A stretch of 64,000 bases of DNA, from the NCBI RefSeq assembly GCF_011320225.1, contig NZ_JAAOEN010000015.1, positions 1 to 64,000 of the forward strand, read 5' to 3'. How positions within the stretch are numbered: the first letter of the stretch is position 1; each line of letters opens with the position of its first letter. A model generated the notes under the pieces. The model was not told where the DNA came from and ran no database searches. It was given only the letters and a program-made list of their open reading frames with translations. The position numbers and the translations under genes were made by a program. Shown here piece after piece: positions 27,708 through 63,136 of this stretch. The DNA comes from Phytoactinopolyspora limicola (GTDB lineage Bacteria > Actinomycetota > Actinomycetes > Jiangellales > Jiangellaceae).

Positions 27708-27846
27708 CCCCGGTGATCGTTGCCGGTTTTCAGCCCATCGGTCCCGTGATCATCATCATGATTGGGTCGCTATCACGACACGATTGCGGCAACGATCACC
27801 GGGGTGGAGGGCGGAAAACCGGCAACGATCACCGGGGTGGAGGGCG
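27708..27846. repeat. Inverted and direct repeats of ACGATCACCGGGG
   Basis: The 23-bp arm at 27708-27730 is the exact reverse complement of 27815-27837. The block GGCAACGATCACCGGGGTGG and six more bases occur as a direct repeat at 27788-27813 and 27821-27846. A further ACGATCACCGGGG copy is at about 41390 before fcl. Located between the hydrolase and the fucosyltransferase. Confidence 0.75.
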
Positions 27847-39562: not shown

Positions 39563-40223
39563 CCCGCCACTTGCACCTGATCTCCGTTTTGACGCCTGAT
39601 CGTTTTCGTGGCGACGATCAGATGCACGGTGGTGACGACGGCCAGCGCCGACGTCCGGTAGCCGCACCTGATCGTCTCCACGATGTGGGACGGTTGGTGA
39701 TCAGATGCGTGAACCGTCGTATGGCGTCCGGTAGCGCATCTGATCGTGTCGAGATGGACGTCGACAGGCCTTGCTGGGCTTGCTGGGTTCGCGTCGCTGC
39801 GTTGCGGACCAGCGCAGCACCGTCAGCCGAGGCATGGCACGCTCAGCACTCGTTCCCATGGGCGAAATGCCCGAAACGTGGAGTCCGTCAACGTGCCACC
39901 CCACTCGCGCCCCACAGCACACTGCCACCCCGACGACGCCCATCACGGTCAACGACCTCATCGGCGCACCTCGAAGAACCCGACCGCGCCGACAGCCACC
40001 GACCACGCCGCATCCGATCAACACAGTGCCGCGGCGACACGATCAGATGCGCTACCGGACGCCATACGACGGTTCACGCATCTGATCACCAACCGTCCCA
40101 CATCGTGGAGACGATCAGGCGCGGCTACCGCGCGCCGACCCTGGCTGTCGTCACCACCGTGCATCTGATCGTCGCCACGAAAACGATCAGGCGTCAAAAC
40201 GGAGATCAGGTGCAAGTGGCGGG
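39563..40223. repeat. 661-bp foldback element with 189-bp arms
   Basis: The left arm (39563-39751) and right arm (40035-40223) are reverse complements over the same length, 189 bp, with about seven mismatches clustered in the middle. The 283-bp loop between them is unique within the element. Each arm carries six GATC sites, most within GCAYCTGATC or its complement. It fills the gap between the convergent epimerase and gmd genes, and its right end is one base from the gmd stop codon. No transposase is present. A homologous copy lies at 51779-52310. Confidence 0.92.
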
Positions 40224-41237
40224 TTAGCGGTCGATGCGGACGTTGCGACCGTTGAGTTCGTCGTCCAGCGCCGCGATGTCAGCCTCGGTCATGATCCGGG
40301 CCAACTCGTCGAACATCACCGTCGGCTTCCAGTCGAGCGCACGTTCGGCCTTCGACGCGTCGCCGATCAGGGCATCCACCTCGGCCGGCCGCTCGTACCG
40401 GGCGTCGTAGGCGACGTAGTCACGCCAGTCGAGCCCGACGGTGGAGAACGCGGCTTCGCAGAAGTCGCGGACGGAGTTGGCTTGACCGGTGGCGACGACG
40501 TAATCGTCGGGCTCGTCCTGCTGGAGCATCCGCCACATCGCCTCGACGTACTCGGGTGCGTAACCCCAGTCGCGGATCGCGTCGAGGTTGCCCAGGTACA
40601 GCTTGTCCTGTAGCCCCGCTTTGATCCGGGCTACCGCACGGGTGATTTTGCGGGTGACGAACGTTTCGCCGCGCCGAGGGCTCTCGTGGTTGAACAGGAT
40701 GCCGTTGACCGCGTACATGCCGTAGGCCTCGCGGTAGTTGACCGTCGTCCAATACCCGAACACCTTGGCGCAGCCGTAGGGGCTGCGCGGGTGGAACCGG
40801 GTGTCTTCGTTCTGCGGTGGCGGCGCCGAGCCGAACATCTCCGACGACGACGCTTGGTAGATGCGGGTGGCTACACCACTGGCGCGGACTGCCTCTAGAA
40901 GCCGCAGCGGCCCGGCGCCTGTGATGTCTGCCGTGTACAGCGGCGTGTCGAAGGAGACTCGCACATGTGACTGCGCGCCCAGGTTGTAGATCTCGTCCGG
41001 CTGGATGTCGCGTAGTAGGTTGACCAGTGCTACCCCGTCGGACAAGTCGGCATGGTGCAGGATCAACCGGCGGTCTGCGTCGTGAGGATCCTCGTAGATG
41101 TGGTCGATCCGGTCGGTGTTGAAGCTGGACGATCGCCGGATCAGGCCGTGGACCTCGTAGTCCTTGGCGACCAGCAGCTCAGCTAGGTATGAGCCGTCTT
41201 GTCCGGTGATGCCAGTGATGACAGCGGTCTTCGCCAT
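40224..41237 (-). CDS. gmd: GDP-mannose 4,6-dehydratase
   Basis: 337 residues. Converts GDP-mannose to GDP-4-keto-6-deoxymannose, the first step to GDP-L-fucose. [16 protein letters not shown] at the N-terminus, [12 protein letters not shown], the catalytic SPYGCAK, and [17 protein letters not shown] are diagnostic. The ATG has AAGGGGGG eight bases upstream; that site lies in a small hairpin present twice. It diverges from fcl, giving a two-gene GDP-fucose module. GDP-mannose supply genes are not in the window. Confidence 0.96.
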
Positions 41238-46362: not shown

Positions 46363-46438
46363 ACTCCCCTCCCCATGATCATTGGCTTTTGACTACCGGA
46401 TCCGGTAGTCAAAAGCCAATGATCATGGGGAGGGGAGT
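46363..46438. repeat. 76-bp perfect palindrome (CCATGATCAT family)
   Basis: Bases 46363-46438 equal their own reverse complement, centred on GGATCC at 46400/46401. The core begins CCATGATCATTGGCTTTT. It is between two minus-strand genes, touching the stop codon of the upstream one, so it can act as a terminator. A close relative is at 53390-53445. Confidence 0.92.
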
Positions 46439-51778: not shown

Positions 51779-52310
51779 TGTGCACCTGATCTCCGTTTTG
51801 ACGCCTGATCGTTCTTGTGGCGACGATCAGGTGCACGGTGGGCGGCGACGGCCAGTGTCGACGTGCGGTAGCGGCGTCTGATCGTCTCCACGATGTGAGA
51901 CGCTCGGCGATCAGATGCGCAAACCGTCGTATGACGTCCGGTAGTGCATCTGATCGGGTCGGGGCAGCACCGTGCTATTCGGATGCGGCGTTGCAATCGG
52001 ATGCGGCGTTCGTCTGCGGGGCGGACGCGGCGGTGGGGTGCGGGGCGCCGGGGCCGCCGACTCGCCCAGGGTGCTGTCCGGGGCTCACCCGGGGGTAGCC
52101 GAATGCCAGGGCCCGGGGTGGTGCGTTGACGGCCTCCACAATTGCGACATTTCATCCACCACAACAAGCGGTCAGCGCACCAAGCCTTCGGCCGAGGGTC
52201 CTGCCCTCGTTCACAACGGGCACCCGCGAGCCCTGCACATCCGCCTAGCGCCCACCGCGACACGATCAGATGCACTACCGGACGCCAGGCGACGGTTCAC
52301 GCATCTGATC
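51779..52310. repeat. Second, partly truncated foldback element
   Basis: The left arm (51779-51961) is clearly homologous to the arms of the element at 39563. The ~295-bp loop is homologous to the loop of that element in the reverse orientation: GCACYGTGYT...CGGATGCGGCG, and CGTTGACGG-CTCCAC, are shared. The right arm survives only for ~53 bp (52258-52310). Both arms carry GTAGTGCATCTG where the first element has GTAGCGCATCTG in both arms. The rest of the gap to 52383 shows nothing else. Confidence 0.88.
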
Positions 52311-52383
52311 ATGTCGGCGGAAGCCGGGCAGGCGTGCCGTATTCGCGCCGGTGATCGGCGGGCCGCCAATACCCACGCGAGCC

Positions 52384-53364: not shown

Positions 53365-53389
53365 GACAGATCCCCAAGGGTGTCCCCTC

Positions 53390-53445
53390 CCATGATCATT
53401 GGCTTCTGGCTACCGGATCCGGTAGCCAAAAGCCAATGATCATGG
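53390..53445. repeat. 56-bp palindrome (CCATGATCAT family) in a divergent promoter region
   Basis: Arms pair with a single mismatch around a GGATCC centre (53417/53418). It is the sister of the palindrome at 46363-46438. Where that one has GAC/GTC in the stem, this has GGC/GCC, a compensatory A-T to G-C change. Unlike a terminator it sits between two gene starts, so a dispersed element is more likely. Confidence 0.9.
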
Positions 53446-53464
53446 AGGGAGGCGGTTGCTAGAT

Positions 53465-57341: not shown

Positions 57342-57603
57342 GATCAGATGTCGACGCTGGGCTATTTGCCGCTGGTGGCTACGGACACGCAGCATCTGAT
57401 CGCGTCGTCACAGCATATGGACACCTTTCGATCAGGTGCACGAGTCGACGTGTAGAGCCGCGTTGTGCATCTGATCGTTCTGGGTCCGGATCGCGAGATG
57501 GCGTCGGACGACGTTTCGGTTCGCCGACCAGCGACGTCGTCATCTCTTCCGCACCTGATCGTCGCCATGAGAACGATCAGGTGCGGAAACGGAGATCAGG
57601 TGA
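57342..57603. repeat. GATC-hairpin repeat element
   Basis: Contains eight GATC sites, seven inside GCAYCTGATC-like 10-mers or their complement. One hairpin is perfect: 57547-57562 pairs with 57573-57588 (16-bp stem, arm TTCCGCACCTGATCGT). It shares the end GGAGATCAGGTG with the foldback element at 39563 but lacks a homologous long loop. Fills most of the gap between the hydrolase promoter and the ABC exporter end. Confidence 0.82.
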
Positions 57604-61208: not shown

Positions 61209-61390
61209 GTGCACCTGATCGTCGATATGTCACCTGATCGTCAAGGTGAAAACGATCAGGTGTGCTAATCGGGCATGGGGTCCATGACTACTGCATCTGA
61301 TCGCCTCCACCATTCGGACACCAGTCGGGCACGTGGCGATCAGATGGCAAACCCGTGGCTGGCGGGACCGGGAGAGCATCTGATCGCCCA
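61209..61390. repeat. GATC-hairpin repeat element in a divergent promoter region
   Basis: Six GATC sites. Two hairpins: CACCTGATCGT (61231-61241) with 61252-61262, and CATCTGATCGCC (61294-61305) with 61335-61346. A single GCATCTGATC follows at about 61377. It lies between the divergent ABC exporter and M81 genes (342-bp gap), so it is not a terminator. Nothing else was seen in the gap besides the probable promoters. Confidence 0.82.
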
Positions 61391-61495: not shown

Positions 61496-63085
61496 GTGAC
61501 GACGCCGCTTGCTTCCACCGTCTGGTCCCCGCCGCTGAGCCCCGTGCACGACGGCGGCCTGACTCGACCACGGATCGCGATCGCCGGTATCGCCATCGAA
61601 TCGTCGACGTTCTCCCCGCATATCAGCGGTTGGGACGCGTTCACGGTCCGGCGTGGCGACGAGTTGCTCGGCCGCTACGCGTTTCTCGGCCCCGGCACCG
61701 AGCGCGGTGACGCCGCCGAGTGGGTGCCGATCCTGCACGGCTTGGCACTGCCGGGTGGAGCCGTCGACCCGCAGGTCTACCGGTCGATGCGGGACGAGAT
61801 CGTCCACGGCCTGGCCGCACAAGGCCCATTCGACGGGGTGTTCCTCGACATTCACGGCGCCATGAGTGTGGTCGGCATCCGCGACGCCGAGGCAGATCTG
61901 GCCGGAGCGATCCGCACCGCGGTCGGCGACGACCCGCTCGTGTCCACGTCGATGGATCTCCACGGCAACGTGTCGGCCGAGTTCTCTCGAGCCGTCGACC
62001 TAATCACCTGTTACCGCATGGCCCCGCACGAGGACGCGTGGAACACGAAAGAGCGAGCCGTGCACAACCTGCTGGAGCGGCTACGCGGACCATACGGCCG
62101 TGACCCACACGCTCGCCGACCGTGGCAGGCATGGGTCCAAGTGCCCGTGTTGCTGCCGGGGGAGAAGACGAGTACCCGGCTCGAGCCGGCCCGGGGTCTG
62201 TATGACCGCGTCCCCGAGGTCGAAGCGCTCGACGGCGTGGTGGATGCGGCCATCTGGATCGGCTACGCATGGGCCGACGAGCCCCGCTGTCAGGCGGCGA
62301 TCGTCGTCACCGGGGATGACGCCGAACTGGCTCGTCGGGAAGCGGAGGGCCTGGCCAGGGATTTCTGGATGGCCCGTGGGGATTTCTCGTTCGTGGCGCC
62401 GACCGGGTCCCTGGCCGAATGCCTGGATCGGGCGTTGACCCGCGGACCGGGTGCCCCGACGCCGTTCGTCGTCTCCGACTCAGGCGACAATCCGACCGCG
62501 GGTGGTGCCGGCGACGTGTCGTGGACGCTGGGTGAGCTGCTAGCCCGCCCCGAGCTCGGCGATCCGGCTCGGACGGTGCTCCATGCTTCGATCTTCGACC
62601 CGGATGCCGTGGCCGCCGCGGTCCGGGCCGGGGTTGGTGGCCAGGTCGACGTCGAGGTGGGGGGCCGGGTGGATGCTGGTCCGCGGGGTCCAGTCCGGTT
62701 GACCGGTGAGGTTTTCTCGATCACCGATGATGATCCGGTAGCCGGCACTATCGCGGTGATCCGCAGCGGCGCTGTGCACGCGATCATCACCGAGCGGCGC
62801 AAACCGTTCCATCTCGTGGCCGACTTCACCGCGCTGGGCCTGGACCCGCATGGGGCGGACGTGGTGGTGGTGAAGATCGGGTATCTGGAGCCCGAGTTGT
62901 ACGACATGGCCGCCGACTGGTTGCTCGCGCTCACCCCGGGTGGTGTAGACCAGGACCTGTTGCGGCTGGGGCACCGGCACATCCAGCGGCCGATGTACCC
63001 GTTCGACCCCGACATGGCGGAACCAGATCTGCGGCCCGTCGTGCGTCGCCGAGGAGACACCGAACGCCGTCCACCAACCCCATGA
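61496..63085 (+). CDS. M81 family metallopeptidase (MlrC-like)
   Basis: 529 residues. Related to microcystinase C (MlrC), a metal-dependent amidohydrolase. N-terminal RIAIAGIAIESSTFSP, IHGAMSV, MDLHGNVS, YRMAPHEDAWNT, and the later VVSDSGDNPTAGGAGD (metal/catalytic DSGDNP) are family hallmarks. GTG at 61496 has AAGAAGG five bases upstream; the longer open frame before it crosses the repeat element. The true substrate in soil bacteria is not known. Its stop codon lies inside a palindrome shared with the convergent ROK gene. Confidence 0.9.
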   Translation: MTTPLASTVWSPPLSPVHDGGLTRPRIAIAGIAIESSTFSPHISGWDAFTVRRGDELLGRYAFLGPGTERGDAAEWVPILHGLALPGGAVDPQVYRSMRDEIVHGLAAQGPFDGVFLDIHGAMSVVGIRDAEADLAGAIRTAVGDDPLVSTSMDLHGNVSAEFSRAVDLITCYRMAPHEDAWNTKERAVHNLLERLRGPYGRDPHARRPWQAWVQVPVLLPGEKTSTRLEPARGLYDRVPEVEALDGVVDAAIWIGYAWADEPRCQAAIVVTGDDAELARREAEGLARDFWMARGDFSFVAPTGSLAECLDRALTRGPGAPTPFVVSDSGDNPTAGGAGDVSWTLGELLARPELGDPARTVLHASIFDPDAVAAAVRAGVGGQVDVEVGGRVDAGPRGPVRLTGEVFSITDDDPVAGTIAVIRSGAVHAIITERRKPFHLVADFTALGLDPHGADVVVVKIGYLEPELYDMAADWLLALTPGGVDQDLLRLGHRHIQRPMYPFDPDMAEPDLRPVVRRRGDTERRPPTP

Positions 63086-63136
63086 TCATGAACACTTTGC
63101 CGTGCCATAGCACGGCAAAGTGTTCATGATCATGGG
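63079..63136. terminator. Bidirectional palindromic terminator (CCATGATCAT family)
   Basis: Arms 63079-63105 and 63110-63136 are 27-bp perfect complements around the loop CATA. The M81 stop codon is inside the left arm and the ROK stop is 12 bp past the right arm. The outer ends share CCATGATCAT with the palindromes at 46363 and 53390; the inner arms differ. Confidence 0.85.

Follow-up and report, generated by a model that had tools for sequence, protein, structure and literature searches.

A 661-bp foldback in Phytoactinopolyspora limicola is a paired copy of a dispersed repeat, with a resident AbiEi-DUF559-like gene as its probable partner

A long and almost perfect inverted repeat of 661 bp lies in a stretch of 64,000 nucleotides from Phytoactinopolyspora limicola, which we refer to as the window, and it raises the question of what such an element is and which protein might act on it. 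The initial annotation offered three guesses: a non-autonomous mobile element, a long double-stranded RNA, or an array of binding sites for an unknown protein.

The foldback and its repeat unit

The arms of the foldback are 189 nt each, are 96.3% identical with 7 mismatches and enclose a loop of 283 nt, exactly as the first reading had it (189-bp arms, about seven mismatches, a 283-bp loop), and a weaker extension reaches out to 39558 and 40228 with 9 mismatches in 194 positions (Table 1). The estimate of about twelve GATC sites came close, as there are 13 inside the foldback, and these are indeed mostly found in GCAYCTGATC or its complement. No convincing gene was found inside the 661 bp, in line with the earlier view that none is supported there. 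The proposed fold check, run on single-stranded DNA, gave a very stable structure (-312.5 kcal/mol vs -137 +/- 5 for shuffles, z -32).

When the genome was searched with the arm, as had been proposed, dozens more places were recovered, and the foldback is one of about 100 copies of a dispersed repeat in the 6.59-Mb P. limicola genome (G000). Judged by its mfd protein, the organism is close to Phytoactinopolyspora and Jiangella. The arm recurs on other contigs, many times as inverted pairs, which argues against the assembly artefact confined to this place that had been named as a possible refutation; as to the other one, a known IS end pair, we recognised no pair of IS ends to which the foldback would belong.

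The foldback consists of two inverted copies of a unit of about 165 bp, and each such unit contains six CTGATC motifs (A, B, B', C, C' and D) in the fixed order + + - + - +. Units were searched with an A-B-B' pattern in which A-B is fixed at 19 bp and B-B' at 20 bp. Inverted CTGATC pairs of the B-B' kind in the DNA examined are all 28 bp long, none 27 or 29, while the remaining motif spacings form clusters at 29-32, 41-44 and 52-55 bp, are rarely 20 or 63 bp and never 45-51 bp. A step of about 11 bp fits these spacings best, closely followed by 10.5, and linker length varies in steps of about 10-11 bp. In units picked by A, B and B' alone, conservation amounts to 96-99% in the motifs C, C' and D vs 63-73% in the linkers, and tolerating two mismatches added only 7 units to 160. 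Motif conservation combined with phased spacing is what would be expected if a protein bound the array along one face of the DNA. With conserved motifs, spacing steps and a candidate protein (see below), the array of binding sites turned out to be the best of the three early guesses.

Table 1. Repeat features in the window (positions of the 64,000-nt stretch)
Feature	Position	Strand	Remarks
Left unit	39563..39751	+	CTGATC at 39577, 39596, (-)39616, 39668, (-)39699, 39740
Foldback loop, 283 nt	39752..40034	.	aligns with loops of several other paired copies
Right unit, inverted	40035..40223	-	outer end abuts stop codon of gmd-like gene 40224-41237
Perfect palindrome, 76 bp, ATGATCATTGGCTTTTGAC type	46363..46438	.	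family flanking the C12 paralogue
Second pair, with incomplete right unit	51781..52311	.	between mfd and convergent gene; 4-bp gap in G001
Palindrome, C12-type family	53383..53449	.	
Single or partial unit	57392..57602	-	
Single or partial unit	61210..61380	+	divergent gap
Palindrome, ATGATCATGAACACTTT type	63078..63136	.	family flanking the C10 paralogue; fills 62-bp convergent gap

The arms of a pair are on average 84% alike, vs 75% for units of different pairs, and in some paired copies the arms are merely 66-72% alike. The arms are each other's closest match in no more than 15 of 36 pairs, so that a pair is not in every case copied as a whole. A terminator hairpin built from the outer flanks of a unit was also considered and rejected, because a unit's own flanks show no stronger pairing than do flanks from other units. 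In two units of G000 (regions L074:3586 and L075:3150), the sequence after motif C has given way to a different palindrome (gcctgctggctcagaattgcggat...), which looks like a third repeat that was inserted into the unit.

Distribution and genomic placement

The A-B-B' pattern matches 160 times in G000, 36 times in G004, 35 times in G011, 27 times in G014 and once each in G015, G020 and G021, and it was found neither in the congeners G001-G003 nor in 395 other actinobacterial genomes. Arrays with the geometry of the unit and a different motif were absent from 190 kb of G001 and G002. The C-C'-D pattern, which can count one unit twice, also matches in G021, G013, G010, G018 and G015. The foldback had been regarded as the basic element, but in the Jiangellaceae relatives G004, G011 and G014 the units are mostly single. 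Unit positions common to several genomes are essentially limited to one gene locus, described below. Near-identical unit and gene contexts occur on two contigs of G000 (L067 and L068; C36:324500-332324 and C18:33500-41500), possibly a duplicated segment or an assembly overlap.

Units are located outside genes, right after stop codons, mostly in convergent and rarely in divergent gaps. In G000, a gene end is found on the A side of the unit in 77 of 91 cases, often at most 40 bp away, and for some genes a TGA within a unit motif serves as the stop codon. An orientation of units fixed relative to genes could not be retained as a rule, as it is strong in G000, where it arises because pairs face outward, and does not exist in G014.

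Gaps of 747 and 608 bp in the window correspond to 78 and 4 bp in the congener G001, and the 62-bp convergent gap with the palindrome at 63078-63136 corresponds to 0 bp. Judged from these near-gapless counterparts, the units and the palindrome were probably inserted in P. limicola, with loss in G001 as the alternative. The early guess of a non-autonomous mobile element thereby gains support from the high but patchy copy numbers and from sites that are empty in a congener. As to the marks of a MITE or other DNA transposon, inspection by eye of 49 single-unit flanks revealed no target-site duplication, and for fixed ends the empty sites are too diverged to give exact boundaries.

The unit-flanked gene

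A comparison of unit-adjacent genes across genomes yielded a single shared locus, at which a gene lies between inverted units in G000, G011 and G014. In P. limicola this gene (C7:70450-71379) is situated on the contig of the window, just past its end, and it is the only one found with units, in inverted orientation, on both sides. It encodes a protein of 310 aa in which an AbiEi-type DNA-binding domain is fused to a DUF559-like putative nuclease. The N-terminal domain is recognised by PADLOC AbiEi models (E 9e-19 to 7e-28), which match the G000 protein, and several homologues also match PF13338. The family alignment has the invariant residues E208, D239 and E250, and its C-terminal third matches the endonuclease-like structure 3hrl_A (E 1.4e-4), while the DUF559 match is below Pfam's cut-off; we regard this domain as a putative DUF559-like or PD-(D/E)xK nuclease.

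In G004, a glyoxalase-like gene lies between units at the corresponding place, and the homologue of the nuclease-like gene is found elsewhere, likewise between units. Close homologues (at least 57% identity) are present in 8 of 22 genomes of the family, and all 8 contain units, vs 1 of the 14 genomes that have no close homologue (p = 3e-5, relatedness uncorrected). That one is G021, which has many C-C'-D matches, and G010, G018 and G015 possess the gene and few units. With the C12 paralogue as query, no homologues were found on plasmids or viral contigs. Two further observations concern individual loci: in G014, a stop or frameshift disrupts the unit-flanked gene (L239, G014:C1:4789399-4790143), with 27 exact units still present in that genome, and in G009 a distant homologue (52%) is flanked by another TGATC-containing array with tandem copies of about 103 bp (L290).

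Further gene-repeat pairs

Two further gene-repeat pairs exist in G000, where the C12 and C10 paralogues are each flanked by their own dispersed palindrome, with 14 and 10 matches, respectively, in 0.80 Mb of this genome, flanks included. More generally, left and right flanks share a repeat at 40 bits or more in 26 of 45 homologues, compared with a single case among 314 control genes (p = 2e-26, relatedness uncorrected), and under a looser definition of the flanks (E<1e-4) in 36 of 46 homologues vs 1 of 40 controls. The flank on one side is matched better by its own partner than by that of a paralogue in the same genome in 24 of 33 cases. Outside Jiangellaceae, seven homologues share flank repeats at E < 1e-8, and for one palindrome from such a homologue, three more copies exist in the genome concerned; four congeners lack it. 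No repeat shared by both sides of the homologue was found in G010, G018, G015 and G013. The window also contains an inverted repeat with GTGATC motifs (27708-27837, 44-nt arms, 84%) between same-strand genes, which we assign to none of the three repeat families.

Discussion

We consider it likely, with considerable room for doubt, that the foldback represents a REPIN-like pair within a dispersed repeat family, and that the cognate protein of this family is encoded by the single resident gene C7:70450-71379. It is their association that suggests this pairing of gene and repeat, and binding, cleavage and copying are inferred. As AbiEi proteins are known to bind inverted repeats and to repress their own promoter (PMC3985639), the motif array is a plausible target. 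The AbiEi-type winged helix would bind the motif copies of a unit cooperatively and repress its own gene, and the DUF559-like domain would cleave DNA at, or close to, either the repeat or its target. Repair after cleavage could then copy the repeat to new sites, and copies would persist behind stop codons, where genes stay unharmed; if the gene were lost, the spread would stop and the copies would decay. The mode of spread is the weakest step of this scheme, and repair copying driven by the nuclease is only a proposal. Gene and flank repeats may also simply be inherited together.

The conserved motifs, diverging linkers and positions after stop codons or between convergent genes, with divergent gaps rarely occupied, would equally suit arrays that serve the host, for instance as a roadblock to transcription, an insulator or a chromosome-organising site, with their spread being incidental. 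We think that this is unlikely, though it deserves to be taken seriously, since units occupy a minority of gaps, are missing from the congeners, have no fixed orientation in G014 and share essentially no positions between genomes. It is more doubtful still that the unseen enzyme of another mobile element spreads the repeats, and that the AbiEi-DUF559 genes just happen to be where these often land, or bear them as regulatory sites. Many elements are tolerated at gene ends, and the locus of the unit-flanked gene (P0001) is positionally conserved in three genomes, as such an explanation would allow; yet each paralogue lies between two copies of a repeat variant of its own, an arrangement almost never seen in the control genes. 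A role of the foldback as a long RNA, structured or double-stranded, as had been suggested early on, found no support and appears very improbable. The predicted fold is very stable, the position is convergent and spacing steps of about 11 nt are also compatible with an A-form helix, but the mostly single units of the relatives form no long stem, the arms of some pairs are too dissimilar, and none of six related loci matched a known RNA family in Rfam.

The favoured reading, a repeat with a cognate AbiEi-nuclease gene, could be extended to a wider proposal that we put forward tentatively, at somewhat less than even chances: actinomycetes would harbour widespread, RAYT-independent systems of self-spreading repeats, in which an AbiEi-nuclease gene co-evolves with its own palindromic or multi-motif repeat and several such pairs reside in one genome. 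A search confined to openly accessible papers other than preprints turned up none that links AbiEi-DUF559 genes to dispersed repeats. If the proposal is true, orphan-antitoxin or DUF559 annotations across actinomycetes would gain a likely role, REP-like repeats would have a second, non-homologous origin, and the differing matched pairs within one genome would make the spread and upkeep of bacterial repeat families directly testable.

Among known systems, the closest parallel is provided by the REP/REPIN-RAYT 'REPtrons' (PMC3116915, PMC8266576, PMC3733652), which likewise comprise dispersed extragenic palindromic repeats, often as inverted pairs. Single-copy RAYT genes that differ from one another have different REPINs next to them (PMC3116915), and repeats flank the RAYT genes (PMC3733652). 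Here, too, a single-copy gene is found beside or between repeats of its own type, and several different gene-repeat pairs occur per genome. The gene family is a different one, however: RAYT is a Y1 (HUH) transposase, whereas the gene described here is AbiEi-DUF559-like, and in place of a REP hairpin of 20-40 bp there is a unit of about 165 bp with an array of six motifs. An actual RAYT system was considered and rejected, as a Y1/HUH tyrosine transposase (PF01797) was not found in G000 and the flanked gene is unrelated. TIRtrons resemble our case in that long inverted repeats flank a gene and also form a dispersed family, but their TIRYT genes are tyrosine transposases (PMC3733652). With the AbiE type IV toxin-antitoxin systems (PMC3985639), the protein shares the AbiEi-type N-terminal domain, and it differs from them by its C-terminal nuclease-like domain and by the dispersed repeats. 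Taken together, the many copies of the repeat and the gene that they flank suggest a bacterial system of a selfish repeat plus helper gene that is unrelated to REP/RAYT.
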